Below are positions 10,065 through 59,785 of a DNA stretch of 64,000 nt, in pieces. The stretch covers positions 806,001 through 870,000 of the forward strand of contig JAOTON010000767.1 in the NCBI GenBank assembly GCA_034440635.1. Direction: 5' to 3'. Made by a program: the position numbers and the translations under genes. This DNA is from Lepas anatifera (Eukaryota > Arthropoda > Thecostraca > Lepadidae). The notes below the pieces were generated by a model. The model was given only the letters and a program-made list of their open reading frames with translations, did not search any database and was not told where the DNA came from. Each line of letters opens with the position of its first letter. Position 1 is the stretch's first letter.

Positions 10065-10074
10065 ACTACTACTA

Positions 10075-37394: not shown

Positions 37395-39240
37395 TCTTCC
37401 CCTGCTCACCTCGATCTTGTCCAGCTGATGATGATGCTTGGTGTTTTAGGGCACTCGTTCTTGTCTAGCTGTATGCTGGCGGGACCTCCTGCCCCACCCC
37501 TGGGTCCACCCCTGCTCACCTCGATCTTGTCCAGCTGTATGGTGGCGGGACCTCCGTGCCCCACCCCTGGATCCCCCTGCTCACCTCGATCTTGTCCAGC
37601 TGTATGTGGCCGGACCTCCGTGCCCACCCCTGGACCCCTGCTCACCTCGATCTTGTCTAGCTGTATGGTGGCGGGACCTCCGTGCCCACCCTGGGTCCCT
37701 GCTCACCTCGATCTTGTTCAGCGTATGTGGCCGGACCTCCGTGCCCACCCTGGATCCTGCTCACCTCGATCTTGTCTAGCTTATGGTGGCGGGACCTCCG
37801 TGCCCGCCCCTACCCCTACTCACCTCGATCTTGTCCAGCTGTATGCTGGCCGGACCTCCGTGCCCACCCCTGGATCCCCCTGCTCACCTCGATCTTGTCT
37901 AGCTGTATGGTGGCGGGACCTCCGTGCCCACCCCTGGGTCCCCTGCTCACCTCGATCTTGTCCAGCTGTATGGTGGCGGGACCTCCGTGCCCCACCCCTG
38001 CTCACCTCGATCTTGTCCAGCTGTATGGTGGCGGGACCTCCGTGCCCCCCCTGCCCCTGCTCACCTCGATCTTGTCAGCTATATGTGGCGGGACCTCCGT
38101 GCCCACCCCTGGATCCCCTGCTCACCTCGATCTTGTTCAGCTGTATGGTGGCGGGACCTCCGTGCCCCACCCCTGGATCCCCCTGCTCACCTCGATCTTG
38201 TCCAGCTGTATGGTGGCGGACCTCCGTGCCCGCCCCTGGATCCCCCTGCTCACCTCGATCTTGTCCAGCTGTATGGTGGCGGGACCTCCGTGCCCACCCC
38301 TGGATCCCCTGCTCACCTCGATCTTGTTCAGCTGTATGGTGGCGGGACCTCCGTGCCCCACCCCTGCTCACCTCGATCTTGTCCAGCTGTATGGTGACGG
38401 GACCTCCGTGCCCCACCCCTGGATCCCCTGCTCACCTCGATCTTGTTCAGCTGTATGGTGGCGGGACCTCCGTGCCCCACCCCTGGGTCCCCCTGCTCAC
38501 CTCGATCTTGTCCAGCTGTATGGTGACGGGACCTCCGTGCCCCACCCCTGGATCCCCTGCTCACCTCGATCTTGTTCAGCTGTATGGTGACGGGACCTCC
38601 GTGCCCCACCCCTGGATCCCCCTGCTCACCTCGATCTTGTCCAGCTGTATGGTGGCGGGACCTCCGTGCCCTGCCCCTGGATCCCCTGCTCACCTCGATC
38701 TTGTCCAGCTGTATGGTGGCGGGACCTCCGTGCCCAGCCCTGGATCCCCCTGCTCACCTCGATCTTGTCCAGCTGTATGGTGGTGGGACCTCCGTGCCCC
38801 ACCCCTGGATCCCCCTGCTCACCTCGATCTTGTCCAGCTGTATGGTGGCGGGACCTCCGTGCCCCACCCCTGGATCCCCCTGCTCACCTCGATCTTGTCC
38901 AGCTGTATGGTGGCGGGACCTCCGTGCCCCACCCTGCTCACCTCGATCTTGTCCAGCTGTATGGTGGCGGGACCTCCGTGCCCACCCTGGATCCCCCTGC
39001 TCACCTCGATCTTGTCCAGCTGTATGGTGGCGGGACCTCCGTGCCCTGCCCTGGATCCCCTGCTCACCTCGATCTTGTCCAGCTGTATGGTGGCGGGACC
39101 TCCGTGCCCACCCCTGGATCCCCCTGCTCACCTCGATCCTTTCCAGCTGTATGGTGGCGGGACCTCCGTGCCCACCCCTGCTCACCTCGATCTTGTCCAG
39201 CTGTATGGTGGCGGGACCTCCGTGCCCCACCCCTGCTCAC
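37395..39240 (-). repeat. Donor-site minisatellite after exon 14 (~30 copies)
   Basis: A ~62-base unit (55-65). On the gene strand each unit holds CCGCCACCATACAGCTGGAC, then AAGATCGAG|GTGAGCAGGG, then GGATCCAGGGGTGGG and GCACGGAGGTCCCG. The first ~29 bases equal the last ~29 bases of exon 14 (which reads CCATCATACAG), so every unit carries exon end plus a consensus donor. Units nearest the exon are the most regular, and those around 37440-37900 are decayed (TATGTGG, CTAGC variants). Open frames inside it (up to 704 codons on the plus strand) follow from repeat composition. Confidence 0.97.
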
Positions 39241-39434
39241 CTCGATCTTGTCCAGCTGTATGATGGCGGTGCGGACGGCGGCGGCGGCGTCGCGGTCCTG
39301 TTCGCTGATGAGCAGCTGGCGCACCACCGCCTCCAGCTGCTGCAGACGCCGCTTGTCGGCCGGAAGCCGCAGCGTCGCCTTCATCCGCGCCAGCAGCAGA
39401 CACAGGCCCCGCCGGATGTTGGGCACCGGGTCGT
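39241..39434 (-). CDS. PPP4R4: PPP4R4-like exon 14, bracketed by acceptor and donor arrays
   Basis: 194 bp, residues about 585-650: DDPVPNIRRGLCLLLARMKA, TLRLPADKRRLQQLEAVVRQ, LLISEQDRDAAAAVRTAIIQ, LDKIE. Acceptor TGTTCCCACCAG, donor GAG|GTGAGC. Matches the human DPVANVRMKLCYLLPKVKST, LKIPADKHLLQQLE and LELDRMEM blocks, including the end of the HEAT region. The 60-bp array upstream repeats its acceptor and first bases. The ~62-bp array downstream repeats its last ~29 bases and donor. The copies contiguous with the exon were chosen as the real sites because they give the family length. Confidence 0.95.
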
Positions 39435-40950
39435 CTGGTGGGAACAGAGAGGCGGAGGTCTGAGGGGCCCGGCAGATGTGAGGCACCGGGTCGTCTGGTG
39501 GGAACAGAGAGGCGGAGGTCTGAGGGGCCCGGCAGATGTGAGGCACTGGGTCGTCTGGTGGGAACAGAGAGGGGAGATCTGAGGGGCCCGGCAGATGTGA
39601 GGCAGAGGGTCGTCTGGTGGGGACAGAGAGGCGGAGGTCTGAGGGGCCCGGCAGATGTGAGGCACACGGGGTCGTCTGGTGGGGACAGAGAGGCGGAGGT
39701 CTGAGGGGCCCGGCAGATGTGAGGCACCGGGTCGTCTGGTGGGGACAGAGAGGCGGAGGTCTGAGGGGCCCGGCAGATGTGAGGCAGGGGGTCGTCTGGT
39801 GGGGACAGAGAGGCGGAGGTCTGAGGGGCCCGGCAGATGTGAGGCAGAGGGGTCGTCTGGTGGGGACAGAGAAGGCGGAGGTCTGAGGGGCCCGGCAGAT
39901 GTGAGGCACCGGGTCGTCTGGTGGGGACAGGGAGGCGGAGGTCTGAGGGGCCCGGCAGATGTGAGGACAGGGTCGTCTGGTGGGGACAGAGAGGCGGAGG
40001 TCTGAGGGGCCCGGCAGATGTGAGGCACGGGGTCGTCTGGTGGGGACAGAGAGGCGGAGATCTGAGGGGCCCGGCAGATGTGAGGCACGGGGTCGTCTGG
40101 TGGGGACAGAGAGGCGGAGGTCTGAGGGGCCCGGCAGATGTGAGGTACAGGGGTCGTCTGGTGGGGACAGAGAGGCGGAGGTCTGAGGGGCCCGGCAGAT
40201 GTGAGGCACGGGGTCGTCTGGTGGGGACAGAGAGGCGGAGGTCTGAGGGGCCCGGCAGATGTGAGGCACGGGGTCGTCTGGTGGGGACAGAGAGGCGGAG
40301 GTCTGAGGGGCCCGGCAGATGTGAGGTACCAGGGGTCGTCTGGTGGGGACAGAGAGGCGGAGGTCTGAGGGGCCCGGCAGATGTGAGCCACGGGGTCGTC
40401 TGGTGGGGACAGAGAGGCGGAGGTCTGAGGGGCCCGGCAGATGTGAGGCACGGGGTCGTCTGGTGGGGACAGAGAGGCGGAGGTCTGAGGGGCCCGGCAG
40501 ATGTGAGGCAGGGGGTCGTCTGGTGGGAACAGAGAGGCGGAGGTCTGAGGGGCCCGGCAGATGTGAGGCAGGGGGTCGTCTGGTGGGGACAGAGAGGCGG
40601 AGGTCTGAGGGGCCCGGCAGATGTGAGGCAGGGGGTCGTCTGGTGGGGACAGAGAGGCGGAGGTCTGAGGGGCCCGGCAGATGTGAGGCAGGGGGTCGTC
40701 TGGTGGGGACAGAGAGGCGGAGGTCTGAGGGGCCCGGCAGATGTGAGGCAGGGGGTCGTCTGGTGGGGACAGAGAGGCGGAGGTCTGAGGGGCCCGGCAG
40801 ATGTGAGGCAGGGGGTCGTCTGGTGGGGACAGAGAGGCGGAGGTCTGAGGGGCCCGGCAGATGTGAGGCAGGGGGTCGTCTGGTGGGAACAGAGAGGCGG
40901 AGGTCTGAGGGGCCCGGCAGATGTGAGGCAGAGGGTCGTCTGGTGGGAAG
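39435..40950 (-). repeat. Acceptor-site minisatellite before exon 14 (~26 copies)
   Basis: A 60-base unit. On the gene strand: GCCTCACATCTGCCGGGCCC, CTCAGACCTCCGCCTCTCTG, TCCCCACCAG|ACGACCC. Each unit ends with a pyrimidine tract plus CAG, followed by the first ~7 bases of exon 14. The nearest copies are 60 and 120 bases from the real acceptor and in frame, and later units vary by a base or two. The oldest edge is near 40950. Confidence 0.97.
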
Positions 40951-41079
40951 AAGTGTATAAAGGAAAACATGAACACAGATTCAACAAAGAACAACTCTAC
41001 GCGACCGAGAAGAACTTTTTCGGACAGTAAGTTAGAAAAAGTGTGGAGCCGCATCGCAAAAAAATCTGAGAAATAAAAT

Positions 41080-41165
41080 AGCGATCAGGTGGTTTCTCAG
41101 CATGCTGTCACATGGCTATCTCAGTTGAACTCTCATCATAAAGGTGCCACCTTATTTTTAACATC
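41080..41165. mobile_element. 3' fragment of the TTAA MITE family
   Basis: GGCTATCTCAGTTGAACTCT and AAAGGTGCCACCTTATTTTTAA match the right ends of the elements at 22205 and 41669. The left part is missing. Confidence 0.6.
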
Positions 41166-41472
41166 ATAGAATAGCCAGAATAGCACAGACCTTACCACGA
41201 CGCTGATGCCGGGGAGGTCTGTATACATTTCGGCCAGACGAAGACTCAGATATTCAACTTCATAAGTAATCTATCGCTCCCACCAGCCTTCTCGCAAAGC
41301 TCTTTAAATCTACCCAAACGCCGCAAAACACCACATCGCTGTACAAGAAAGCACAAGCTGCTCAGCAACAACTGCTCAAATGCACGGACACCGAACCCCC
41401 ACCTCTGCCAGCCAACAACAGACCAACTAGCCAACGAGCCAACATACAACAACTGCCAGCTAGCCAACATAC

Positions 41473-41598
41473 CAACGAGGGCCAGAGCGGTGGAGAAGAA
41501 ATACTGCTTGAAGTAGGCCTTGGAGAACATGTCGAGCACTAGGGCGCAGATGTCCAGGTACAGCTTCCTCATGTGACAGCTGTCGCTCTGCCCCAGCT
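41473..41598 (-). CDS. PPP4R4: PPP4R4-like exon 13
   Basis: 126 bp, residues about 543-585: ELGQSDSCHMRKLYLDICAL, VLDMFSKAYFKQYFFSTALA. Acceptor CTCTCCCCAG, donor G|GTATGT. The LGQ...R..LD.C...... FSK..F..YFF pattern is diagnostic for PPP4R4. Short direct repeats (GTTGG and TTGGCTAG-like) follow the donor for about 70 bases, a weak echo of the edge arrays elsewhere. A TTAA-flanked MITE lies about 70 bases upstream of the acceptor. Confidence 0.93.
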
Positions 41599-41668
41599 CT
41601 GGGGAGAGGAGACGGGGTCGTGTCGGCTCTGCGTGGGTTCGGGAGTGAGCTGTGACGAGTGAGATTAA

Positions 41669-42117
41669 GGGGAATGTGGCGCCTTGGTCGAATCCTGGAA
41701 TTTAGTGAAATTAGGCGTACTTTTAGCCAACAATAATGAAACCACTCATGATTTATCTGAAAAATGTACAATAAGCTCAATATTTTGTTTTTAAAAATAC
41801 TCCTCTAGAAAAAGAAATAAATATCAGCTTGTGTATGATGTCACGATCTGGCAACCACTACCATATTTGAAACGCTTCAAGGGCTTCAATTGGCTGATGC
41901 TCATCGTGACGTCAGCATATGTCGTCACACCAGTAGCTCACAACAATGGCCGCCGGCGACGGGGGCTGATGGGGGCTGGTGTCAGGTAGGTTTTAGCTTT
42001 TTTCTACGGAAATATCGAGTTCCAAGACAATTGAAATATGGAGTACCGGGTTTTCCGACTTGCTTTACAACTTGGCTATCTCAGTTAAAATCACGTTGTG
42101 AAGGTGCCACATTCCCT
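41669..42117. mobile_element. ~450-bp TTAA MITE, copy 2, in intron 12
   Basis: TTAA at 41665-41668 and 42118-42121. Ends GGGGAATGTGGCGCCTTGG and (reverse complement) AGGGAATGTGGCACCTTC. Closely similar to 22205-22653. It lies about 70 bases upstream (gene sense) of the exon 13 acceptor. Confidence 0.85.
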
Positions 42118-42121
42118 TTAA

Positions 42122-45100
42122 GTGGAACGATTGCGAGTTGGTCCCCTCCTTTCCGGACCCAGCCACGCAATGCAGTTATCCAGCATCTTGACGCGGCTAG
42201 TACGGTACAGGTGATAGCAAGTGCTTATTCTGGAAACGGAAAGGAATATCTTTTCATGTTAAGTGGGGAACAAGTTATTGTCGGGGAGGAGTGAGCCACG
42301 AAACCACAAAAATGACCATGCGTCTTTTATTCCGAATATTGACGTTTGTGGCGCTTAAAATTCCGTATGACGAAATCAGTTAATAATAGAAGGAATTGTT
42401 TAAACACTCTCGATGGGTCAATATTTGGAAAAATATAGTAGAAACTGATGGCTAAAAATTTATTACCAGCAATACGAATAAGAAAAACAATGACAGCCCT
42501 CTCCTAATATTTTAAGAAATAATTATGAATAATAGACTTTAAACAATTCAGATATTTCAAACATGTCCACAAAGTTCTCGGTCTTGATCACGTCCCCTGA
42601 ATAAATACATAGACTCTATTTTTAAAATCATTTCAAATACGATGAGCATCATGTCTTTTTATTCCAGTCAAGACTGTTGAATCGTTAAACCAATGTTTCT
42701 TCTCCCTTTTCTCTCCTGCAATACCTAGACTGGTATTTCACCTAAGGCTTTTCAAACTACAGTGGATACTGTGGGTACTGCATGCGTTGCACGAACATTT
42801 TTGGTTTGAACATAAAAATAGGCACTGTTAACCTCCCACATTCTCAATATGCACCTCCGCCTCCTAAATCCTAATCAACCAACGATTTTCCGCAAGAAAG
42901 ATCACAGCCGTCCCTTACGGGCCTGCTCAGCTGATAAGCACCGCACTAATCGGCGTCTTTTATTATTGAAGCTCCGCGTTACATCCAGTCCGCCGTTTCC
43001 CTGGCTCCAGCGGTCCGTTCGGTACACACAGTGAGTCAGCGCAACAGACAAAAAACTAATGGCGCAATCTCCTAAAGGGTGATGTTTGTGCTGGAACGCG
43101 GCAGACGCACGTACGCGATAGCGATCTTTGCCGAGTTGACATGGCAATGCGGTAAACACGCACGCATGTTTCGCATGCCTACCGGTCCAAAAAGAGCAAC
43201 GAGTCAATTCACTTCGACCCACTTAACTTAATCAGACTCAGACGTGCTTACTCCATGGTTCGTGTGATAATGCGAGTCCAGTACAAACAGAGATGAGTGG
43301 AGCCAGAATATACGACAACGGTTCCTCTGCACTGACGCTGCCCAGTGGAGTCACAAGTAATGGCGACACTGACCGCGGGTTTTTAACGGCCCCTATACAA
43401 CAGCAGGACCCGGTGCTTTACAAGCAGCTCCAACGCACCAATGAACCAAGTTCGTTTTTAGGCTATTTGTGCCAGTCTTTAACAGGCATAATTGCCCAAT
43501 TATATGGAGCCTGGCTGAGCTATTGGAAAAGAGCAATCAACAAGCCACAGGGCTAATTTATGGTTATGACGCTGGGGCGGTTTAACAAGACGAAGAAGCT
43601 GTGCCTCTAGTGCTGAAAATTATATTTCCCTCACACTCCAAAGGGCAGGTCAATGAATGAAAAAGGAGCTCACGCCCGCATTCATTCGATACTTCTCTAT
43701 TTTCGTCAGAGAAAATACGTAGTGTCGTAATATCCTTTCGTATCTGGATCTATTACCGAACACGACGGGCAACATACTAAATTCATATTGGAGGATAAAA
43801 TAAGGCCTCCACAAAGAAGCCTAGGCTTGACCTTTCACCACCTGGAGAGGGAGAGTCTTACCGAATCCCCCCCTCCTCGCCCCCCCCAGTTCTTCGGGGA
43901 TGATTCCCAGCCGAATTGTAAACGAAACACATCACTTTGCATACCTGTCAGGTGATCCACTTGACATCTTTTGACATCTGATGCACTAAATTGACATCAG
44001 ATCGACAAATTATGACGCCATTTCTAAAGGTTTGTGAGGCGATTCCGATCTTTTAAAATGAGTCATACCAATCCAGCGTGTAACTCGGCCCCTAGCACAG
44101 CTATATTAAATTTCCAAACACTATTCGGAAGCTTTTGAAAAGAAAGTCGGGGAAATGCTATCCATTTTGAGGTCAGGTTAACAACCAGGCCACCAGAGGC
44201 CACCGAAGGTCACTTTGAATTAGCTTGTGTATATATTTTTTAACGACACAATGAAGAGGAATTAATGTTATGTCGTAGTGACGAGCATAATCCAATGATT
44301 CGAATAATAAAAATATATATATACAACTGGGCTTTCTCCCACTTTGACCTGATGTCAAGGTTACCAAGTGACCTAACATGACCATGCCGTATCATTCACA
44401 TCCTTAGGTTACGCCGAACACATGGCTGTCTTTGGCTTGCGTCTAGGACTAACGGTTCCCGAGATATAATGGATTTCCTAAATCGGCCTGAACTTGATCT
44501 ACTTTGGCTCCCGGTGTGGTCATAGATCAACGGATATACTATAGAGTTAATTAACATTTCCCTTAAAGTTTAGAAAGTAAAAAGATAGGATTAAGTTTTT
44601 AAATACCGATATTTTGCCTTTGAGGCTTCATCAGAGTACATTAAAAAGCACAAAAACATACGACCACTCGATTGAAATTCGATACAGGAGGGACGAGTCC
44701 AGTTTTTTCAGCATAAAAATTGAGATGAGTATCGCCTCCGAATAAGGCTTCTTTTTAGTATTTGAAAAAACTATCATCGGATATTATTTGAATTTGGTTC
44801 AAGAGTAAACAACGGTAGGGCGCTCTGAGCACATTTTCGATTTTTCCCTATTAACGTTGGTTTCCGAGATCGTAGCGTGAGAAGGAGGGTTCGGTCAGGT
44901 CCCCACAGGCGGTGGTGGCAAGGAAGAGCCCAGGCGGTGCCCGGTTAGCGTGTGGGCGTGCCCATGACAAAGACAGGACACAATACCAACAAGCGATCTC
45001 GCATTTAAAGAGAGCTTGGACACCCGGATCGCTCTTCAGGTCGGGCCAAAGTAAGCAGACCAACACAGGTGCAAGGCAGCAGCCTCGCTCGTGCAGCAAC

Positions 45101-46754
45101 CCACTTCCCCACCACTAAAACGCAACAGTGGTAATCTGATCACGAACGCACCGTCCGTCCCCAGGCTACAACCTCGGACAGACTACCATGGCGGAGCTGG
45201 TTGGCAGCACGGCCCCGGGGACCACGGGGTCGTTAGCAGGGGCAGCGATAAGGCCAGGTCGGCGCTCCCAATGCCATCGCGGACGTCCACCGCGGGCACG
45301 GAGCACGCTCGCCGGTGACGCACTCACCCCCACGACCTGACGCTGGGCCGTATTTTTGGACAGGGAGAAGACTGGAGGCTGGTGGACACTAGGTTCGCGG
45401 GGAGTCAGCAGGTTCGGCCGGGGTGATACGGAGGCGCTCCGGACGCTGCGTCACAGGGTTTGCACCCGCTGTGTGTTGCGCGGCCCGGAGGAATTAGCTT
45501 GGAACTGCGATACAAACGCTCCACAAATGATAATGCCGCGCACCCACGCCAACGGAAAATGTTTAAAAAACGAGGCTTACGCTGACAGGAAACAGATGAT
45601 GCCCAACTCCGCCACCTTCAATACGGAGTTGGGCTTGCTTTCTAGTTGGAGCAGTTTTAGGATTGTTGGCAAGCACTTTCACTCTTTACTGGCCAGGAAC
45701 TATATTTACTGGCCAGGAACTATTTTACTGGCAGAAACTATATTTAATGGTCAGGAACTATATTTAACATAATACAAACACCCACACCCCACACCGACTG
45801 CGGCCGTACCAGGGTTACCTTGGCCAGTAAATATAGTCTTATATTAAAGACCTGTCGTCGACAAATATTCCAACTTTGTGTATATAAGTAAATAAGTGAT
45901 ATTTGACGCAGATCAAAAGTTCGGCTCGGTGGCCTACCTCCATCATTCCGCATCATTTTCATCCTGAGAGCAACAGTGCACCATTTGGGCCCAGTCTTAG
46001 CCCAGTTTAACCCCATTTCCAATGCCAACTTTCACCCACTGAATAACAGCTGAACTAGACTTCGTCTTTCAAGCTAACTAACTATTTCGCTGAGTGCCAC
46101 ATGCAATATATTCTACATTTTGTAATGGTGCTCGGTGTTTACCAGAAGCCGTGAAATAACCAACTGTAGCGAACTATCAGTCAAGCGGTTTTCAACGGCC
46201 ATCGGCGACGGTAATCAACTTAACCGCTCGGCGCTTAGATAATTAGGGATTCCCTAACAAGCCACCGCTGACGTCAAACCGAACAAACAGCGGGAGCGTT
46301 ATTGTCAGAGCCAGTCACGCCTGAAATAGAACCTGGCCTCAACAACTGTCCCTGGGTCATACTGAATTCTAGCTCAAGCACTACTGACCACCAGTCCAGT
46401 AACTCTTCAGAGCCGAAAGCTAATATCAATCTTTACCATTCACCGATGCTAGCTTTTAGCCACGGGTGGTACCAAACACTATCTTTAAGGGGAGATTGAA
46501 ACTGCTAAATCTTGAAAAACACAGTGTTCGAGGAAAATTGGGGCATTATTGGGCGTTTCGGTGACACCCTAGAGTGGAGATGAACATAGCCCGGATGCCC
46601 CCCCCCACCCCACCCCCTAGGGACCGCCAGCGCGTTCGACCATTGTTGGTAACTGCCAGCCCTAAAAGTAGAAGACGAGCCCCAGATCAAGCGCACTATT
46701 TGGAACACCCTATTTCGCCGTCGTCACCTTGTTCCGCAGTGCTGGCGAGCTCAC
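42122..46754. other. Intron 12, mostly featureless
   Basis: No further exon is needed, because exons 12 and 13 join in phase 1. 44160-44400 is relatively rich in AGGTCA/TGACCT hexamers. A small tandem repeat with an inverted copy is listed separately at 45680-45840. No other gene is seen. Confidence 0.55.
45680..45840. repeat. Small tandem repeat (TTTACTGGCCAGGAACTATA) with an inverted copy
   Basis: Four imperfect ~25-base copies between 45685 and 45770, followed at about 45818-45835 by the reverse complement (TTGGCCAGTAAATATAGT). This gives hairpin potential. Confidence 0.7.
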
Positions 46755-46860
46755 CTTCCACGATGCGTGCGCAGATGATGTTGCGGTGCTCGATCTGCCG
46801 CACGTGCTGAAGAAATACCAGCAGAGTCCCGGCAGCAGCCTGGCGACACGGCACTGGACG
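46755..46860 (-). CDS. PPP4R4: PPP4R4-like exon 12
   Basis: 106 bp, residues about 509-543: RPVPCRQAAAGTLLVFLQHV, then RQIEHRNIICARIVE. Acceptor CCCTCGGCAG, donor G|GTGAGC. Aligns with the human VLPVQKAASRTLCIFLRYNR KQEQRHEVIQKLIEQ segment. Phase 0 in, phase 1 out. No tandem repeat touches either splice site. Confidence 0.92.
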
Positions 46861-48011: not shown

Positions 48012-48194
48012 CACAGTGTGCAGCTTCTGGAAGATGGTGGGCACCCAGCAGTGGTACAGGTGGTCCGGGGGGAAGCAGTCTGCCAGGCTGCTCAGTCGCT
48101 CCAGGAGGCCGGCGTGTAGCCGCCACCGGGTCGTGTTGGCGATCACACACTCACACGTCATCAGCGCCGCCGTCAGTTCAGCCACCAGCTCCGG
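48012..48194 (-). CDS. PPP4R4: PPP4R4-like exon 11, preceded by a splice-acceptor array
   Basis: 183 bp, 61 codons, residues about 448-508: PELVAELTAALMTCECVIAN, TTRWRLHAGLLERLSSLADC, FPPDHLYHCWVPTIFQKLHT. Acceptor CACTGTCAG and donor GTGAGG. Aligns with the human LPDLIPALTAAEQ.. WRTHEKLLQKYACLP.. region, about four residues shorter at its start. The acceptor and the first ~9 exon bases (CCGGAGCTG) recur through the array at 48195-48760. Confidence 0.92.
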
Positions 48195-48760
48195 CTGACA
48201 GTGACGTCACACACATCAGATCCGGCTGACAGGACGGTGACGTCACACACATCAGCTCCAGCTGACAGGACAGGGACGTCACACACATCAGCTTCGGCTG
48301 ACAGGACAGGGACGCCACACACACCAGCTCCGGCTGACAGGACAGGGACGTCACACACATCAGCTCCGGCTGACAGGACAGGGACGTCACACACATCAGC
48401 TCCGGCTGACAGTGACGTCACACACATCAGTTCCAGCTGACAGGACAGCGACGTCACACACATCAGCTCCGACTGACAGCACAGTGACGTCACACACATC
48501 AGCTCCGGTTGACAGTGACGTCACACACATCAGCTCCGGCTGACAGGACGGTGACGTCACACATCAGCCCCGGCTGACAGTGACGTCACATACATCAGCT
48601 CCGGCTGACAGTGACGTCACACACATCAGATCCAGCTGACAGGACGGTGACGTCACACACATCGGCTCCGGCTGACAGCACAGTGACGTCACACACATCA
48701 GCTCCGGTTGACAGTGACGTCACACATATCAGCTCCGGCTGACGGCCACGTTACAGTTGC
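48195..48760 (-). repeat. Acceptor-site minisatellite before exon 11 (~15 copies), with a CRE palindrome in most units
   Basis: Units of 27-40 bases. On the gene strand: TGATGTGTGTGACGTCACTG, TCAG|CCGGAGC. Each unit carries a TGTCAG acceptor plus the first bases of exon 11 (CCGGAGCTG), followed by a TG-rich stretch and usually TGACGTCA or GTGACGTC. Variants insert CCGTCCTG or TGTCCTG. The array decays after about 48740. Confidence 0.93.
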
Positions 48761-49829: not shown

Positions 49830-50235
49830 AAGCTCTCGCCAGCGCAGCTGCTGCAGTGTACAGCTGCAGATCTCTGTGGGGGCACACATGGGAGTCGCCA
49901 GCTGCTGCAGTACACAGCTGTAGATCTCTGTGGGAGGCACACATGGGAGTCGCCAGCTGCTGCAGTACACAGCTGCAGATCTCTGTGGGAGGCACACATG
50001 GGAGTCGCCAGCTGCTGCAGTACACAGCTGCAGATCTCTGTGGGGGGCACACATAGGAGTCGCCAGCTGCTGCAGTACACAGCTGCAGATCTCTGTGGGG
50101 GGCACACATGGGAGTCGCCAGCTGCTGCAGTGCACAGCTGCAGATCTCTGTGGGGGCACACATGGGAGTCGGCAGCTGCTGCAGTACACGGCTGCAGATC
50201 TCTGTGGGGGCACACATGGGAGTCGCCAACGGGGA
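49830..50235 (-). repeat. ~54-bp minisatellite with an acceptor-like site per unit (~8 copies)
   Basis: On the gene strand: CTGGCGACTCCCATGTGTGC, CCCCACAG|AGATCTGCAG, CTGTGTACTGCAGCAG. Each unit contains a good acceptor (TGTGTGCCCCCACAG|AG). It lies in intron 10, but no PPP4R4 residues are missing here, so there is no matching known exon. PstI (CTGCAG) and BglII (AGATCT) hexamers recur. Confidence 0.92.
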
Positions 50236-50486
50236 AACGGAGCGACAAGGCCCTCACCTTTTAATTGGAATATTTTCATATATCAGCTCGTCTGAACGGA
50301 TTTACCGACACCAGGAACGTTACAAGGAGTCTAAATCTGAATATATATTACCTTCCTTTCGAAAGTTCGCTTTTCTGACAGTGAGGAGTTTTCACTGAAA
50401 ACTGTTTCTACCGACCTTCAGTCAGTGGAGAAGCTCTCGGGGAATATAAAGCACGGATCCAAGGGGCGAATGCGGCGGCTGGAAGC

Positions 50487-50719
50487 ACCTGCAAAATTGT
50501 GCTTGAGCCCCCACAAATAGGTAATCCCCAGATCGTTTCGCCGTAGAATATTGTCGATGTATCACTATTCGCTCTTCGCAGACAGGACAAATTGGAGACA
50601 GATTCTGTCTCCAATTTGCCCTGTCTGCGAAGAGCGAATAGTGATACATCGACAATATTCTACGGCGAAACGATCTGGGGATTACCTATTTGTGGGGGCT
50701 CAAGCAAAATTTTGCAGGT
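50487..50719. repeat. 233-bp near-perfect palindrome
   Basis: Symmetric about 50603 (GGAGACAGA t TCTGTCTCC). The arms run 50487-50602 and 50604-50719 with only a few mismatches (for example GTGCTTGAGC versus GCTCAAGCAA). No spacer apart from the single central base. It sits in intron 10 and its right arm leads into a SINE-like tail. Confidence 0.95.
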
Positions 50720-50875
50720 AAGCCACTGGTCCCGGGTTCAAGTCCCGGCGGAGCCTCTGAATAGGTCGATCTGATCCCCAAAATCCCTTCCGACAGGGTG
50801 AGAGTTGGCGACGCCGTATGACCCTGGCAGTTGGTGCGTCGTTAAACCCCAACAATTATTATTATTATTATAAGG
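50720..50875 (+). mobile_element. SINE-like sequence with a B-box-like motif and ATT tail
   Basis: CCCGGGTTCAAGTCCCGG (B-box-like), then GGCAGTTGGTGCGTCGTTAA, ACCCC and (ATT)n. The GTTAAAC...microsatellite ending is shared with the SINE at 54588-54800. The head is replaced by the palindrome. Confidence 0.55.
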
Positions 50876-51883
50876 AGACAGAATCTGGTCCCAAAAATAT
50901 ACGAAGGCCGTCCTTACGTGAATTCTTCTTTATTAAGAAGTGCGGGTAGTGGCGCCCTGCTTCAGTGGTATTGTTTGAAGAGAGACACTGAGAAATTCAC
51001 CCTTTCCCTGGCGGCATCCCCCCTTCCTGGCAGGGAATTTTTCCGTCAGCGTTGTTTTAAACGGCATCGAAGACAGCCACACTTGTATAATCCCAAAGGC
51101 ACTTCTCACGAAACAAAAGGGCGCCCCAAAATAGCCGATTTGCCACCCTTAACCACCTTTAACCCTTTCCACCCTTAACGAAATCCTGGATCCATCCCTC
51201 AAGAAGATGCATCATGCTCCTACCGTTTCGATGTCAGCATACCTGGCAGTATTTCTCGCCGCCACCTTTCCTGCTGTATCGCAAAGGTGATCTAATGGCT
51301 AGAACTCCAAAACAGCCGCTCTTGCGAGTTGGTAAACATTCTCCGGTTCCCATAAATCACTCCAAACACTTCACAATGAATAATTCAAGCTCCCACAAAG
51401 GTGTGAATTTCCACAAAAACTATCAATATAAATCAGCTTGAAGAACGCCTTAAGTCAACGGAGAAAATATAGCTCACAGGGGAAATAAGCCGCAATGCCT
51501 AGCTCTAAAGTAGCAGGTCAATGCGAGCTCTGGTGTCCCCGTCGGGGCTTTAAAACGTTTTAATTTCCAGACGCATCGGAAAACGACCACGGCTGGACGT
51601 TTCCGTTACTGGATGGATGTTCGCAGTCGGTTCACATTGCGTTACAATAGGTTGTCCCAGCTTCAACTTCGATGATTCACATGAAAATACCCTTTCTGTG
51701 ACTTGTGAGTACCTCTGAACTCTACATTAACATAGTAAATGTAACAATTAATAACGTATTTTGTACAAATCAAACTTATCTTAACAAAGTATACTCAGTC
51801 AAAACACGTGTCAGTGCTGAGGCCAATCCACACTTACAGCTACATTTCCCACACCCCGACCTCCCACCTGTTCTCTACACTAC
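50876..51883. other. Intron 10 segment with degenerate element sequence
   Basis: 50900-51190 carries GGCGCCCTGC, GGGCGCCCC and a solo TCCTGGATCC end near 51185, like the degenerate elements at 4890 and 62990. The rest is featureless. Confidence 0.45.
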
Positions 51884-52042
51884 CTTGGCGCTGGGGCCGA
51901 GCACGCCGTGGCGGACGAAGGTGCTGAGGGTGAGCGGCAGCCGCTCCACCACCGCCGCCAGCACGTCCACGTTGTCGTCCTTCAGCAGGTGCACCAGCTC
52001 CGAGTGGACCTGCCGCACGCTGGCGCCCAGCAGCCGACACAC
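51884..52042 (-). CDS. PPP4R4: PPP4R4-like exon 10
   Basis: 159 bp, 53 codons, residues about 395-447: VCRLLGASVRQVHSELVHLL, KDDNVDVLAAVVERLPLTLS, TFVRHGVLGPSAK. Acceptor CTCCGGCAG, donor AAG|GTAGTG (a weaker donor). Aligns with the human SKLLNSGVYLIHKELITLLQ DESLEVLDALIDHLPEILEL region, so this is a HEAT helix pair. Phase 0 at both ends. Confidence 0.92.
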
Positions 52043-52861
52043 CTGCCGGAGGCGGCCGGGGCTGTGAGCCGAGCCTCCCGGGAACTCCAGGCCGTGGTGA
52101 CGGAGCACGGGGGTTGTACAGGGTCAAGCTGCGCCACGGAGCGACTGTGCAGGCTAGAGAAGAACAGAGGTGGCTTTCCAGTCTGTGCCAAAGCCGTCAC
52201 CATGGGAAGAGAGAACTGAATAAAGCAAAAGACAAGTAGAAGACCCGCGGAGGGGAATCATCCCAGCTTGCGAAAGTCAGCCCAAAATGGCTGAGTCACA
52301 CCTATGAAGCGAACTCTGTACAATTTCACGTCATTAATCGCGTAAAACGACAGATATCACTTTCACTTGACCGGCACTGGTGACTTGAGCTGATATGGCC
52401 CAACCCTAAAATATTGGGGAAAGTTGCGGAATCGATCAAGAATAAGGTGTGGCAAGTACGGAGGCGCTTCACGCCGCCGTTTTTTTAGTGCCGCAGGAAA
52501 ACCCGAGGCGGTGTTCAAACACCCCCTCAACGGGGCGAGGGATAACAACCTACTCCCACCGAATACGATTGAAATGAGAACGAATACATTAAGAAGAAAG
52601 ACACTTTCTATACAGATTGAATAGTTAGTTCTATAATAAATGTTTAAATTATCGTAACATATGTATAGTTAATAGGGTGGTTCTAGATATTTATCCACCA
52701 TGGTATTTTCTCTTGGTATATAGTACTTAGCGTCTTTAGCACAAACCAGTGTCTGTGCGAACGCGCACTGGGTTGAGGATACCAACATGAATATTGTTGA
52801 GGGCCCCTATGAAGTGCAATACAAATAATCAAATAAGAATAGCATCCCCTGTGCGCGCCGT
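52043..52861. other. Intron 9 segment, no other feature
   Basis: Non-coding between the exon 10 acceptor and the exon 9 donor array. Nothing recognised. Confidence 0.55.
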
Positions 52862-53563
52862 GGCTACGTGTCACCTCGTGAAACCCGCCATCGAATCCGC
52901 TCCTCCCTGCTCTACCTAAACCTAACGCCATGTGACCCGGCGTAGAACCCGCCCCTCCTCTGCTCTGTCTGCGCCTCACCTCGTGAAACCCGGCATCAAT
53001 CTCACCCCTCCCTGCTTTGTCTGCACCTCACCTCGTGAAACCCGGCGTAGAATCCGCCCCTCCCTGCTTTTTGAAATTTTTGTCTGCGCCTACTCGTGAA
53101 ACCCGACGTAGAACCCGCCCCTCCCTGCTGTCTGCACCTCACCTCGTGAAACCCGGCATCATTCCCCTCCTGCTTTGTCTGCCCTCCTCGTGAAACCCGG
53201 CGTGATCCGCCCCTCCCTGCTTCTGCGCCTCATCTCGTGAAACCCGACGTGAACCCGCCCCTCCCTGCTTCTGCACCTCACCTCATGAAACCCGACGTGA
53301 ACCCAGTACCCACCCTCCCTGCTCTGTCTGCACCTCCATCGTGAAACCCGGCGTAGAACCCAGTACCCACCCCTCCCTGCTTTGTCTGCACCTCACCTCG
53401 TGAACCCGGCATCAAACTCACCCTCCCTGCTGTCTGCACCTCACCTCGTGAAACCCGACGTAGAACCCAGTACCCGCCCCTCCCTGCTCTGTCTGCACCT
53501 CACCTCGTGAAAAGCGACGTAGAACCCAGTACCCACCCCTCCCCTGCTCTGTCTGCGCCCCAC
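52862..53563 (-). repeat. Donor-site minisatellite after exon 9 (~13 copies)
   Basis: A ~52-base unit (44-63). On the gene strand: GCCGGGTTTCACGAG|GTGAG, GTGCAGACAAAGCAGGGAGG, then a variable GGTGAGATTGAT or GGCGGGTTCTAC segment. Exon 9 itself ends GCCGGCTTTCACGAG|GTGGGG and continues CGCAGACAGAGCAGGGGAGG, so the real junction is unit one. Most copies have a better donor (GTGAGG) than the real one (GTGGGG). Copies far from the exon are more diverged. Confidence 0.95.
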
Positions 53564-53761
53564 CTCGTGAAAGCCGGCGGCCACCAGGCGGCGGACGGGC
53601 GGGTGCGGGTCGAAGACCAGGTCGGTGAAGGTGGCGTGCAGGTTGGCTCGGCTGAGGTCGCCCTCCGCCAGCAGCAGCATCGCCGGGAAGTTGAAGGCGC
53701 AGGCCTCGCAGCACTCCCTGTACCGCTCGCTGGGGTCCAGCTGGGGTACCAGGTCTGGCAT
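53564..53761 (-). CDS. PPP4R4: PPP4R4-like exon 9
   Basis: 198 bp, exactly 66 codons, residues about 329-394. It starts MPDLVPQLDPSERYRECCEA and contains CAFNFPAMLLLAEGDLSRAN, ATFTDLVFDPHPPVRRLVAA and GFHE. Acceptor TTCTCTCAG, donor GAG|GTGGGG. Matches the human KNCAYNFPAMIVFVDPKNF through PEVPVRYTIAICFYEV segment. Copies of its last ~15 bases plus the donor form the array at 52862-53563. Confidence 0.93.
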
Positions 53762-54587
53762 CTGAGAGAACCGGGGACGCGGTCTTCACTGAGCACGGGG
53801 GGTCTTTAACGCAGGTCAGGTGGGACAGCAGACGCTGAGAGAATGGAGACGTTTTGTTGGTGAATGTGTATGATAACACAGAACTTAGTAAAGCCCGAAC
53901 GCTGGGCTCGAGGTTACCCAGAATAGCCTGTGCCATGCTGCCGTGTCAAGAAATAATGGGTATATCCCATGTATTGTCAATGAGAAATGCCATTTTTTCG
54001 TCTACATGACAGCAATGTCCAATGTTCAACGATTGCCGAATTTTCCGCACACAGTTATTCATTAGTATAAAATATTTACGCCAATCGCTGGTAAAACTCT
54101 ATCGGAGAGCTTAACATCTGATCACGGCCCAGGTACAACTGTGAACGGAAGCAACTCGATAGCTCTCGCTCTGATACGATTTCGAAAGGGCGCCACTGCT
54201 GCTCCTTGAACACATCCGGTGCTGAGTGGATTCCTCCCGAAACAGTGGGTGGAAGCTAATACCGGATTGAGGAGCCTCGAAGAATTATAAACCCGTGTTC
54301 AAATGAAAAGTTCGCTATTTACCAGTAAAATTAAGCGGCAGTGGCCACTGATAATGTTACAGAACCTGGCCCTTGGTCCGATGCCACTGCAAACAGTCAC
54401 TTAGATCGTACTGAAAACTAATACCAACCAGCTAATAAATATCTTGGTCACGAAAAATGCAATTTATCATATCTAACACCAAGCGGAACACACAGTTAGG
54501 AGTGTAGGATGGAACGCAACAAGCAAAACCCATGAGACTGACTCGCAGAAAATGCTGGGAGAGAGTGTAGCTTGTAGTACATGTGTA
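53762..54587. other. Intron 8 segment, no other feature
   Basis: Featureless between the exon 9 acceptor and the SINE. Confidence 0.5.
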
Positions 54588-54800
54588 GCCGCCCCGGTAG
54601 CTAAGTTGGTAGAACGTTGGGCTCCGGCCCGCTGCTCAGAAGCATGCAGTTGCAGTGTATGTCCAGGCTTGGGATCGCTTCCCCTGAGACGCTCCGGCGC
54701 TCAATAGTTTACCCGACGTACAGGTCGGCTGGCAACTGACTGGTGAGATGGCGACCTGAGCGGGGCGGCCGTTCCTGTGCTTTGTGGGACGTTAAACTTT
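54588..54800 (+). mobile_element. tRNA-derived SINE, antisense to the gene
   Basis: Head GCCGCCCCGGTAGCTAAGTT, then GGTAGAACG (A box); B-box-like CTTGGGATCGCTTCC; body with CTGGTGAGATGGCGACCTGA; end TGTGGGACGTTAAACTTTGG. The layout is typical of invertebrate tRNA-SINEs. It lies in intron 8. Confidence 0.75.
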
Positions 54801-55945
54801 GGCTTCTAAATCAATCCTTCATTGTGGGAGTTGCACATTCGGGTGGTGGGGTCGGGGTCTCCTTGACAAGTCCATTGATGACTTTAGTGAGACTCCGACT
54901 CCAACAGCCGAACTGGGAACAACTTGGACAAAAATTTATATAAAAATATATGAATTCAAACTTAATTCCCACCAGATCCCACTTGTGCAGTTCGCCCCTC
55001 GGTCAAGCTAAAGAACAGCTCAATACAATCCGTAAACACCGGAGGTGATATTTACGGCTGTATTTTCGTCGGATCTGGAACACATAAAACTGTTCACGTG
55101 TCACAGACACCCCAGAAAGCTCCCACACTAAACCCCATAAATTCCTCAGGCGAGTCACCACGCCACCGTGCTTTTCAGTCAGAAACAAACGGCCAATCAA
55201 TTATGTCGCGCCTCTTTCATGCACGCGGGGATCGATCCAAGCCTCAACGGCGCCAAGACACACTGGTGTGAGCTTTTGGCAGACATTGATTTTACAGCCT
55301 TCCGCGCCCTTAGTGATTGTCGCCGAGACTAAGTGACGGTTTTAGGTGCGGCCCGTGCACGGCGTGTGGCCGCGGGTTGTTACCATCGCGGTGCGGTATT
55401 TGTGAATGCAGCGTGCATTAGCGTTTCTTACACCACACAAGGCGCAAACTGTGATTGCAGACGTCACACCCCGGACAGCACAACACACAACACCGAGGAC
55501 TGGCGATGGAATCCTCCTCCGGGTGGGGGACCAAGTTCCCAGTGAACTTGCAAAAATGTTGTTAATTAGCAAAGGATTGATAAATGGGTGATATGTGACG
55601 GAGCGTTTCTCGGTGGTACTCTAGAGTAAACGTTACAAAATATATGAATATCTCAAATAAAACCAAATGAAATGCTACATTTCTGATTTGTCAGCGAAAT
55701 GCACAGTCGGATTCTATTATATGGTGCCGGACCATCCTAGACAGATGCTAAGAATCGTCCCGTTGGATCTTTGGAGCACCCCAGTGATGACCATTATGCT
55801 GATTATTAAACGTGAGATTGTCAAATCTCCTAACCCGGCATCCTAGCTCAGCACACATACAGTCATACTCATCGACAGAAACCTAATCACACTATAAGCA
55901 GCGCAAGACGGACGTTTCCCAGTCGTGTATCCCATTCCCCCGTAC
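54801..55945. other. Intron 8 segment, with a short repeat shared with intron 7
   Basis: About 55545-55610 (TTAGCAAAGGATTGATAAAT, then GGGTGATATGTGACGGAG) recurs at about 56378-56422 on the other side of exon 8. No gene is seen. Confidence 0.5.
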
Positions 55946-56052
55946 CGGATTGAGCTCGTTGCGGGCGGCCGCCGCCTTGTGCAGGTTCTTCAGTCGCGCC
56001 ACATTGCCGTAGAAGTCGAGGAAGGTCTGCTTCTGTTCCACGCTGAGGTACT
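55946..56052 (-). CDS. PPP4R4: PPP4R4-like exon 8
   Basis: 107 bp, residues about 292-328: EYLSVEQKQTFLDFYGNVAR, then LKNLHKAAAARNELNP. Acceptor TGCTGAGCAG and donor GTACGG. Corresponds to the human FTPDQHLRFLEFYKKLCTLG region (helical F.DFY/FLEFY core). Phase 1 in, phase 0 out. Introns on both sides are free of tandem arrays next to this exon. Confidence 0.88.
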
Positions 56053-56689
56053 CTGCTCAGCAGGAAACAGTACTACCGTCAGACAAGCTGGCTAGTTCCT
56101 GGGCTTAAACACACGCCAACCGTCACAAAGTATCGCGCCCGCCGCAACACCGGCAGCGCATATGGCCACAACAATGTGTGTTTGGTACGCAGCAAAGACG
56201 GGAGCAGCCAACTCAGTGACCTGGGTAGGTGGGAGCTTTGGCCGTGAGATCTTCCGCGCTATAGCGATCTGGCCACGGATGAAGAAGCGGATAACATTTC
56301 TAGAGGACTGGGTGACGGATGCAAGATACGGTTTCCACAGGGTAGAGGAAAGGCTTTCGGTTAGCTTGCAAACAAAATTGTTGATTAGTAAAGGCTTGAT
56401 AGATGGGTGATATGTGACGGAGAGTCAAACGAACATTTGACCGCTCAGAGCGGTGAAAGGCACAGGGGGCCAGGCAGTGTAGCTTTAAGTAAGAAAAAGG
56501 GCGTCCATTGGCGACTGAGCAGCTTTTTTCCACATAGTATATCAGCTTGATACAACTTGATACAAAAACATCCTCTCACTGTAAAAACGCAACGCTCACT
56601 CGACATAGTACGCCGATGTAATACGATTTCTGAGCGCCCATACAGCAAGTAGCACCAGATCAAGCCAACGACCTGCCGCCCCCGCCCTG
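56053..56689. other. Intron 7 segment, no gene
   Basis: Contains the second copy of the GGGTGATATGTGACGGAG repeat (to about 56422). Otherwise featureless. Confidence 0.5.
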
Positions 56690-57350
56690 CCCCCCCCACC
56701 TCCCCTCGCTCATCACCCCTGTGCCGGGACCAGCAGTCCGCCCCCTCCCCCCTCATCACCCCTGTGCCGGGACCAGCAGTCCGCCCCCCTCTCCCCTCAT
56801 CACCCCTGTGCCGGGACCAGCAGTCCGCCCCCTCATCACCCCTGTACCGGGACCAGCAGCCGCCCCCTCCCCCTCATCACCCCTGTGCCGGGACCAGCAG
56901 TCCGCCCCTCCCCCTCATCACCCCTGTACCGGGACCAGCAGTCCGCCCCCTCCCCCTCATCACCCCTGTGCCGGGACCAGCAGTCCGCCCCACCCCCTCC
57001 CCCTCATCACCCCTGTGCCGGGACCAGCAGTCCGCCCCACCCCTCCCCCTCATCACCCCTGTACCGGGACCAGCAGTCCGCCCCACCCCTCCCCCTCATC
57101 ACCCCTGTGCCGGGACCAGCAGTCCCCCACCCCCTCCCCCTCATCACCCCTGTGCCGGGACCAGCAGTCCCCCAACGCCCCTCCCCCTCATCACCCCTGT
57201 ACCGGGACCAGCAGTCCGCCCCCCCTCATCACCCCTGTACCGGGACCAGCAGTCCCCCCCACCTCCCCCTCACTCATCACCCCTGTGCCGGGACCAGCAG
57301 TCCGCCCCCTCCCCCTCATCACCCCTGTGCCGGGACCAGCAGACCGCCCC
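56690..57350 (-). repeat. ~40-bp GC-rich minisatellite starting just after the exon 7 donor (~15 copies)
   Basis: On the gene strand: GGCGGACTGCTGGTCCCGGC, ACAGGGGTGATGAGGGGGAG. The first unit begins within about 8 bases of the GTCAGT donor (GTGGGGGCGGTCTGCTGGTC). Unlike the arrays at exons 9 and 14, the unit does not include exon sequence. Variants are mainly in the G-run length and CACAGG versus TACAGG. Confidence 0.93.
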
Positions 57351-57357
57351 CACTGAC

Positions 57358-57481
57358 CGTTGAGACCGGCGCAGAGTCTGCCCAGCAGACGCGCGATGAC
57401 CGGCAGGGACGAAGTCACGCGCCTCGTAGCTCGACTCGCACACCTTGGTCGCCAGCGGGATGATGGTCTGCGTGCACGTCT
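57358..57481 (-). CDS. PPP4R4: PPP4R4-like exon 7, contains a one-base frame slip
   Basis: 124 bp, residues about 251-292. Acceptor TCGCGGCAG, donor GTCAGT. The first part reads TCTQTIIPLATKVCESSYEA. The second part, in the next frame, reads SLPVIARLLGRLCAGLNG. Both halves match consecutive human sequence (SQTILPLVKSFCEKSFKA followed by SLSFHLGKLCHGLYG). The switch falls at about 57425-57432, and removing one base there would restore the frame and the family length. A GC-rich minisatellite begins a few bases past the donor. Confidence 0.85.
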
Positions 57482-58442
57482 CTGCCGCGAGCCAACAGCT
57501 GGTGACGCAGCTGAACCCCATGTGTCGCACGTGACACGTACTGCTATGTTATGTCGCCTGATAGTTAGTCGAATTACGTAAGCGTTACTGCATATCAGGT
57601 TGCAGACTGTATCAAGTCATATTCCACAAAGGCCTGTCAAGTCAATGATCTGTTTCACCCTGTGTAAGAAACCGGCTTCAAAATGTTGCATTTTTGGCTC
57701 AACGATCAAACTTTTACGATCCCTGCCGGTTTTCAGACCAACCGACTATGCAACGCGCTGCGGAAACCTTCCGTGTAATGTACCAACGTCCGCTTGAAAG
57801 ACCTACCGGAAACCGAAATTGACTCCAATAGCATGGCGACGAAACACGCTGGATCAACTTAGAAGTGAAGCAGCCTCTTAGCAGCAATGCAAAAGTACGC
57901 AACATAACAATTCAACCCATGATCCATTCTAAGGCCTGCGCCTCATTGTTTTGCATGTTTTTCCAAGTGAAACATGAAGCAAAATTTGTATTTTAAAATA
58001 CAGAAATAGAGAGGAAAGCGCGGATACGGAGGGCGCTCTAATACAGATATAGGACTTGTTCCAGCACCTCATCTAACCCCCTTCAAATCTCCTCCAGCAC
58101 ATGTAGAACATTCCTATAGAACTCTTCTGTCCAATAGGAAGCCAGATAAGAGCACTCTTCTTTTTTGTGAGAAAGTTTGAGGAGGTTGGAGGGAGCACTG
58201 GAATAAGCCCATACATGGACCCCGTCTCCAACATATCCGTACTCGTTCCCTGGTTATGTTAATGACGCCACGACAGAGCAGAACAGGGCAGCAGTACATT
58301 CTCTTCTGCATGTAGAGAATCTGAAGGTATCAGTTCCCGATATTAGGTCAGCGACGGTTTAACATTCTTAACAACACTGAGCTACGACACATACCGACCG
58401 TTTCGGCCTCCGTCACGGTTCTGTCTGGCTGCAGTTCCTCAC
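57482..58442. other. Intron 6, no other feature
   Basis: Unremarkable non-coding sequence between the exon 7 acceptor and the exon 6 donor. Confidence 0.55.
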
Positions 58443-58557
58443 CGTCATCCAGAATGTCCAGCATCTCGACAAGTGTGCGGAAGGCAGCCAGCCGGACCGT
58501 GACCTCCTCGTCACTCGCCAGCTCCACTAGCTCCGGGATGATGGCAGCGCGCGTCTC
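58443..58557 (-). CDS. PPP4R4: PPP4R4-like exon 6
   Basis: 115 bp, residues about 214-251: ETRAAIIPELVELASDEEVT, then VRLAAFRTLVEMLDILDD. Acceptor GTGCTTCAG and donor G|GTGAGG. The VRLAAF.TLV..LDI core is nearly invariant in PPP4R4. The aligned human segment needs one more residue between exons 5 and 6, consistent with a single base lost from the G run right after the acceptor. Ends in phase 1, matching exon 7. Confidence 0.92.
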
Positions 58558-58986
58558 CTGAAGCACAGGTTGCCATCGCCGTCACTAGATGGCAGAAGCT
58601 GTCGGCATAGCGCACTAGCCTACACTGGACGGGTTTGTCAGGGACTGGAGGTCACAGAGAGAAGAAAAATGAGCAAACTATACCTAACCCAGCTTTGTGC
58701 ATTATATGAACTCTGACCTGAGATTTTAGGAGTTTATTTTGCACGGACAAAGCTTTCCACGAAAAAAGACTTGAAACACGCACGGACGATACGAAGCTTA
58801 TTTCCTATGAGCGGGATATCTAAGAAACAATGGATATTTTACTTTACCTTAACATTTCAGCTCATCAAAGCCATCCCTCCTCGACAAACCGGTAAACTAT
58901 TAACTATTAAATCAACCACACGTTATCACATAATCCTGTCATTTTCCTCAATACCACATAAGTATAGGATCAGGGGCAGTATTTAC
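58558..58986. other. Intron 5, no other feature
   Basis: AT-rich non-coding sequence. I looked here for an alternative exon 6 start that would repair the phase and found none: the only other upstream AG with a pyrimidine tract gives the wrong frame. Confidence 0.55.
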
Positions 58987-59100
58987 CTGAGGTCCCAGCC
59001 CCTGGCCACGGGCCCAAGCTGGGCGCACATGGCGGCCCGCACTTCGCAGTCCACGTCCTGACACAGGGACTGCACGCTCGCCAGCAGCTCCGTCTGGATC
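58987..59100 (-). CDS. PPP4R4: PPP4R4-like exon 5
   Basis: 114 bp, residues about 175-212: TIQTELLASVQSLCQDVDCE, then VRAAMCAQLGPVARGWDL. Acceptor CTGCGCGCAG and donor AG|GTAAAT. SLCQDV..EVR..MC.QL is a family hallmark. The exon ends in phase 2, but exon 6 only makes sense starting in phase 0, so one base appears to be missing at the junction. No alternative GT in this exon repairs the frame. Confidence 0.9.
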
Positions 59101-59314
59101 CTGCGCGCAGGGTCTGAATGTCAGAGATCGTACCGTTGTCCACACATCGAAACACACACGGCATGATTTACTATTATCGCCTACGACATATGGCTCCTTG
59201 ACATGATCCATCGGGCCTCTGCACAACCGTTTGCGTAACACTAAGATATCAATCTGTCCACCGATTTTTTATCATTAAAAATTTGACTGTGTCCGAATTA
59301 CAGCCAACACTCAC

Positions 59315-59421
59315 GTGTAGGGGTCAAACTTGGAGGCCATTTTGCCGATTAGCTTGCAGCCGGCCACACGTGAAGCGGCGGTGTGACTGAGCTGACTCTT
59401 TTCGACGGCCACGCCCAGAAT
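59315..59421 (-). CDS. PPP4R4: PPP4R4-like exon 4, with duplicated upstream acceptors
   Basis: 107 bp, model residues about 140-174: ILGVAVEKSQLSHT, then AASRVAGCKLIGKMASKFDPY. Acceptor TCTGTCTCAG and donor GTGAGTG are both strong. The segment aligns with the human NPLVSKAQLSQTVQSRLVSCKILGKLTNKF block. An identical acceptor plus exon start lies 69 bases upstream (exon position 59490). The sequence between is open, so use of that site would add exactly 23 in-frame residues. I chose the 3'-most acceptor because it gives the family length. Confidence 0.9.
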
Positions 59422-59785
59422 CTGAGACAGAGAAGTTACTATGGTTACAGTATGACTGAGCTGACTCTTTTCGACGGCCACGCCCAGAATCTGAGACAGA
59501 GAAGTTACTATGGTTACAGTGTGACTGAGCTGACTCTTCTCCACGGCGTTAACTATGGTTACAGTGTGACAGAACTGATTATTATCCACGGCAACGCCCA
59601 GAATCTGAATCGAGGCAGGGACGTCACTACGGTTACAGTGTGAATGAGCTGAGTCTTCTCCACCGCAGAATCTGACAGAGGCGTCACTATGGTTACAGTG
59701 TGACTGAGCTGACTCTTCCCTACGGCTATGGCCAGAATCTGAGACGGAGGCATGGGCGTCACTATGGTTACAGCAGGAGCCAGTG
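59422..59785 (-). repeat. Acceptor-site repeat before exon 4 (~5 extra copies, 2 near-perfect)
   Basis: A 60-69 base unit. On the gene strand: CTGTAACCATAGTAACTTCT, CTGTCTCAG|ATTCTGGGCG, TGGCCGTCGAAAAGAGTCAG, CTCAGTCA. It contains the pyrimidine tract, acceptor and the first ~38 bases (13 codons) of exon 4. The copy at 59422-59490 is nearly perfect, and the next ones are shortened (59540-59720). The open frame runs unbroken from about 59800 through the exon. Confidence 0.93.

Follow-up and report, generated by a model that had tools for sequence, protein, structure and literature searches.

How does a minisatellite come to be built from a splice junction, and does this happen more than once in a genome? 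The question is raised by a stretch of 64,000 nucleotides (nt) from the arthropod Lepas anatifera (assembly GCA_034440635.1, contig JAOTON010000767.1, positions 806,001 to 870,000), hereafter the window, which carries a PPP4R4-like gene with tandem arrays at its exons. An earlier note made from the letters of this DNA had described, at exons 4, 9, 11 and 14 (E4, E9, E11 and E14), arrays whose unit joins exon edge, splice site and intron edge. We found all five of them at the edges it named, the acceptors of E4, E11 and E14 and the donors of E9 and E14. Such junction arrays recur in several unrelated genes of the Lepas anatifera genome. The structure itself has already been described, as the "mirages" of lancelets; what is new is another lineage for mirage-type arrays and a first estimate of their rate, about 6% of exon edges.

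Junction arrays in the PPP4R4-like gene

Encoded on the minus strand, the gene has 14 recognisable exons, which run from window position 62202 down to 39241. Its span holds seven arrays of at least 150 bp, five of which overlap exon edges, so that junction arrays occupy 5 of the 27 edges counted (the start of E1 is excluded). In each of the five, the unit consists of exon edge, splice site and intron edge. The exon portions given below were judged by eye, an ungapped overlap script giving too-large exon parts for some arrays.

37399..39268, minus strand: E14 donor array; unit about 54-65 bp, with ~26-28 exon nt, the donor GTGAGC and an intron part
39241..39434, minus strand: exon 14, with junction arrays on both flanks
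39405..40949, minus strand: E14 acceptor array; unit 60 bp, with ~30 exon nt and ~30 intron nt; 25 units
48012..48194, minus strand: exon 11 of the gene model
48183..48741, minus strand: E11 acceptor array; unit 31/36 bp, with ~12 exon nt; 16 units
49845..50228, minus strand: free array in intron 10, away from any exon edge; internal comparison
52870..53575, minus strand: E9 donor array; unit about 44-60 bp, with ~10-12 exon nt
53564..53761, minus strand: exon 9 of the gene model
56690..57353, minus strand: array beside the exon 7 donor; starts about +5 to +8 in intron 7, with the splice site outside the unit
59315..59421, minus strand: exon 4 of the gene model
59384..59773, minus strand: E4 acceptor array; unit 69 bp, with ~38 exon nt and 31 intron nt

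Copy numbers include the real junction, and a slash marks the exon-intron boundary. The E14 donor array contains ATCGAG/GTGAG 30 times and the E14 acceptor array CACCAG/ACGACC 26 times. The splice cores are intact in nearly all of these copies (30 donor and 26 acceptor cores), and each end of E14 therefore offers about 25-30 candidate sites. The exon edge of E9 is present 12 times, with CACGAG/GTGA in 7 copies; the real E9 donor is GTGGGG, whereas the copies within the array read GTGAGG. CAG/ATTCTG occurs five times in the E4 array. The two remaining arrays (56690-57353 and 49845-50228) are not junction-derived.

The unit sequences are mutually unrelated, as the earlier note had proposed: BLAST among the seven arrays returned no mutual match (E 1e-3), and the seven had no match in the rest of a 264-kb region around and including the window (E 1e-5). 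Its proposal of a separate, local origin for every array, each from the junction it adjoins, also stands. When 306 bp of the E14 donor array were searched against the assembly, with very common words skipped and three candidates scored, the search returned the array's own locus and, elsewhere, two matches of 35-50 bp.

We take the gene to be PPP4R4 from its resemblance to the vertebrate protein. Joined at the real junctions, E8-E14 give a single open frame of 357 amino acids (aa), which matched a single locus in the assembly search. Pfam returned only weak HEAT matches under the curated cut-off for the protein, and a PDB search found no relative. Single-base breaks interrupt the reading frame inside exon 7 (window 57481-57358), and exons 5 and 6 do not match in frame (58987/58557); both have the look of indels in the assembly or of a damaged allele. 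Intron 10 also contains a palindrome (window 50487-50719) of two 116-nt arms, 1 nt apart and 98% complementary.

Junction arrays in other genes

The assembly (1,044,440,039 bases in 2126 contigs) was sampled at 87 myosin-head and kinesin exon matches with short flanks. These were counted as 174 edges, two per match, even though in some cases a domain ends away from any splice junction; distances were taken from the match ends. Myosin contributed 55 of 79 rows from 40 regions; the rows set aside were a single-exon copy, one interrupted by three stops and 22 others, and possible second copies (C153, C151, C176) were kept. Kinesin contributed 32 of 128 rows, all without inner stops and chosen mostly by E-value rank; C35 and C480 (likely second copies) and rows with stops were excluded, and at least one ranked row (C2055:574825) was omitted without a rule. 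Tandem Repeats Finder was used with a minimum array length of 60 bp around the myosin matches and 40 bp around the kinesin ones.

Fifteen arrays lie around the 87 matches. Classed by eye, ten are clear junction arrays (L038, L041, L056, L061, L070, L073 on both sides, L077, L098 and L103), three abut an edge (L048, L059, L065) and two are 43-45 bp from the match (L030, L049). Clear junction-derived arrays thus occur at 10 of 174 edges, or 5.7% (95% interval 2.8-10.3), with 4 of 110 edges in myosin and 6 of 64 in kinesin; the last 12 kinesin exons, taken as a replicate, gave 2 of 24. The PPP4R4-like gene, which was picked for its arrays, exceeds this sample (5/27 versus 10/174, Fisher p 0.035). 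One kinesin exon (L073) resembles E14 in having junction arrays at its acceptor and donor sides alike.

Further cases come from the window's own contig (C729). A SART-1 gene has two acceptor junction arrays (948004-948427 and 949644-949756); its neighbouring exons score above the Pfam SART-1 cut-off, and the two array-bearing exons below it. Three more arrays beside SART-1 exons (946569-946895, 950191-950398 and 951981-953384) end at or before the acceptor. A kinase-like gene (PK_Tyr_Ser-Thr above cut-off) has a junction array at an acceptor (966625-967158). These cases were located from arrays rather than from exons and stand outside the rate. Apart from those of the PPP4R4-like gene, 27 arrays in the 264 kb reach 150 bp or more, and the flanks of about eight were inspected closely; the SART-1 array at 949644-949756 is below that size. 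Several arrays run up to an exon edge, or nearly so, and leave the exon out (L065, L059, L030, L049, window 56690-57353, C729:950191-950398 and C729:951981-953384); these may or may not have started as junction arrays.

One junction array differs in length between two near-identical exon copies. A kinesin donor array with a 51-bp unit has 11 units in contig C1057 and 18 in C480, where the exon is 99.7% identical and the distal intron plus next exon are 98.2% identical over 652 aligned columns (22 gap columns excluded). The two copies are probably haplotypes rather than recent paralogues, and provided they are, the array is unstable in length, as mirages are. The contig pairs C431/C1554, C1057/C480 and C35/C79 resemble separately kept haplotypes, with sequence comparison for C1057/C480 only. 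By coordinates, the spacing of two myosin exon matches in C431/C1554 is 11.9 versus 4.6 kb, a difference of about 7 kb.

Other features were noted in the same material. Some stop-to-stop frames of 500-1540 aa in the myosin and kinesin rows contain several exon matches, and probably reflect introns made of open, G+C-rich arrays. In one myosin gene, four matches cover an identical part of the domain, and we take them to be alternative exons as in muscle myosins. This exon layout fits an arthropod, as does COX1, which is readable with the invertebrate mitochondrial code and is similar to that of barnacles. Several copies of mitochondrial COX1 stand in contigs that are at least hundreds of kb long, e.g., L091 (C609:133779-134478), and are likely nuclear transfers. 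In the window, positions 2301-3666 and 8701-10069 are 99.5% identical over 1369 bp and 6.4 kb apart, and represent either a duplicated segment or a repeated element; beyond each copy comes an array whose 50-bp unit is TCCTGGATCCGCCTATGCTCGAGC (5139-5892 and 10565-12772).

Crowding at exon edges and the origin of the arrays

Are the arrays at junctions more often than chance would place them? For the PPP4R4-like gene, random array placement with exon overlap limited to 40 nt, as observed, touched a mean of 0.30 edges, and 0 of 5000 draws reached 5. Naive random placement (mean 5.2 touched edges, P 0.59) was discarded as a null; its mean is high because random arrays swallow whole exons. Around the 87 sampled matches, 13 of the 15 arrays end within -44 to +10 of the match end, with a P of 1.3e-9 for this broad count and 1.1e-6 for the strict count of 10 of 15. 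The excess over chance that the earlier note had asked about is present in the uncorrected counts of this sample, and it weakens when base composition enters. A G+C content of 0.60 or more is found in the 60-bp windows at 35% of the 110 myosin edges versus 8% of 1474 nearby intron windows, a 4.4-fold difference (arrays were masked in the intron windows and unmasked at the edges). With this factor the broad count gives P 7e-4; applied per family before the replicate, it gives P 0.014 for myosin.

These figures bear on an explanation that needs no junction-specific event, in which minisatellites would form wherever DNA is G+C-rich and only those crossing exon edges would escape selection. Most arrays are indeed G+C-rich (0.59-0.73 in six of the seven in the PPP4R4-like gene), arrays of at least 150 bp make up 10.1% of the 264 kb, and none of the 87 sampled matches wholly contains an array of counted size. 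Yet the E4 array has a G+C content of just 0.49, and the edge excess persists after the 4.4-fold factor. We regard this explanation as a real possibility, though we incline against it as a full account; G+C-rich exon edges and the selective removal of arrays inside exons account for much, perhaps not all, of the edge excess. The converse proposal, that exon edges are true hot spots where a standing mutational process gives rise to junction minisatellites at about one in every twenty edges, is one we hold only tentatively. Such a process could be, for example, microhomology-mediated tandem duplication at the step in composition between exon and intron.

We consider it likely that the arrays are mirage-type minisatellites, that is, tandem duplications spanning a junction that were amplified and are tolerated because the exon-proximal splice site survives. 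A short tandem duplication across the exon-intron junction would take in 5-6 to about 40 exon nt, the splice site and the intron edge, some of its joints having a few nt of microhomology or filler. Unequal exchange or slippage would then amplify the duplication into an array and lengthen the intron. The exon-proximal copy would preserve the coding sequence and the splice site, so that normal splicing, presumably at this proximal site, would still be possible and the rest of the array could expand neutrally. Joints inspected by eye fit such a course, with GCTG at E11, GCTG plus a 2-nt filler at the C1057 kinesin donor and 1 nt at E4. The pattern that the earlier note described as always growing into the intron calls for no mechanism of its own, since coding constraint suffices.

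Several results weigh against this origin. With the G+C factor, the strict count gives only P 0.02 (0.05 before the replicate), and kinesin alone, before the replicate, P 0.18, a value that favours the explanation from base composition. Four of the sampled arrays (L030, L049, L059, L065) and the three beside SART-1 exons lack an exon edge, and the exon part of L048 is doubtful. In both E14 arrays and in E9, the distal flank lacks part of the unit or has it in a form too diverged to recognise; a plain contiguous duplication is thus insufficient for these, and filler or later loss must be assumed. Divergence shows no age gradient away from the exon in the E14 donor, E14 acceptor, E9 or E11 arrays (Spearman not significant; E4 had too few units and was left out), as expected if copies are exchanged throughout an array. 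What stands of the recurrent process proposed in the earlier note is the recurrence, in the sampled edges, the SART-1 gene and the kinase-like gene; the corrected P values (0.0007 broad, 0.02 strict) do not bear out seeding at AG/GT as such.

The intact splice cores in nearly every E14 copy could also mean that the arrays are under selection, the extra sites tuning or diversifying splicing as decoys, in-frame extensions or steps in the removal of long introns. The 51-nt kinesin unit, which keeps the frame and is stop-free by eye, would suit this, as would the GTGAGG copies beside the real GTGGGG donor of E9. But within an array the splice-core columns look no better conserved than the rest, many unit lengths are not divisible by three, and array sequences vary from gene to gene; we find selection of this kind unlikely. 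Still less probable is an assembly artefact, in which long-read assembly would have inflated or created the repeats. The frame breaks noted above at E5/E6 and within E7, together with the 1-nt indels among copies, are what such errors would leave, but two contigs carry the same array, each with its own variants and copy number, consistent substitutions are common to the copies, and the same anatomy is found in unrelated genes. Introner-like mobile introns, or a dispersed satellite favouring splice sites, would explain why many genes are affected, but every clear unit holds the coding edge of its own exon. One sequence dispersed in many genes, the mark of introners, was seen neither among the PPP4R4-like arrays nor between them and the rest of the 264 kb, and the part of the E14 donor array searched against the assembly has no long match at other loci; we give this idea almost no credence.

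Relation to lancelet mirages and other tandem duplications

The earlier note knew of no described system of this kind, but lancelet mirages, for which Canestro 2002 is reportedly the founding paper, have the same structure. As described in PMC3087553 and PMC3902484, mirages are minisatellite-like tandem duplications spanning an exon-intron boundary in Adh3, the globins BflGb6 and BflGb9, troponin C and PGBD5. They occur at acceptors and donors, have splice signals in many units and vary in copy number between haplotypes. For Adh3 and the globins, reverse-transcription PCR together with earlier data suggests that regular splicing is undisturbed, and somatic instability is on record (PMC3087553, PMC3902484). 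The Lepas arrays likewise span the boundary with exon and intron edge in the unit, lie at acceptors and donors (both sides of E14 and of kinesin L073) and keep AG/GT signals in many units. They differ in their arthropod host, in reaching 25-30 units, in flanking both sides of one exon and in having a rate per edge.

Other systems share parts of this structure. In the Rogers model, as summarised in a review (PMC3443670), tandem genomic duplication inside an exon creates a new intron. Tandem duplication multiplies AG/GT-like signals in Lepas as well, but at existing junctions, where it lengthens the intron. In human segmental duplications, variable internal tandem repeats include minisatellites at exon-intron boundaries (PMC2812944). 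They too alter gene structure, in genes that were recently duplicated. Human introns are also said to have arisen from tandem arrays (Zhuo 2007). Dual-specific splice sites are described in tandem repeats, UBC among them (PMC10809524); their AG/GT motifs are potential 3' and 5' sites like those of Lepas, but the UBC repeats are coding units. Our literature search for such arrays in crustaceans, in barnacles or as mirages, in which subscription papers were mostly out of reach, returned no arthropod case. In a tandem-repeat study of Daphnia pulex (PMC3152781), a search of the main text for splice, exon-intron, intron-exon and exon boundaries found none of these terms.

In PMC3087553 and PMC3902484, lancelet mirages are reported gene by gene. 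Junction arrays would confound gene prediction, because each copy looks like a splice site and the arrays often stay open in frame. If exon edges are true hot spots, and with an assumed figure of ~100,000 exons, such arrays would number some ten thousand by order of magnitude; they would then be a chief influence on how long introns become in an arthropod, and would provide it with many alternative splice sites of a variable kind. With junction arrays at 10 of 174 sampled edges and an array that varies in length, the Lepas genome would allow splice-site duplication, intron growth and possibly intron gain to be watched within one population.

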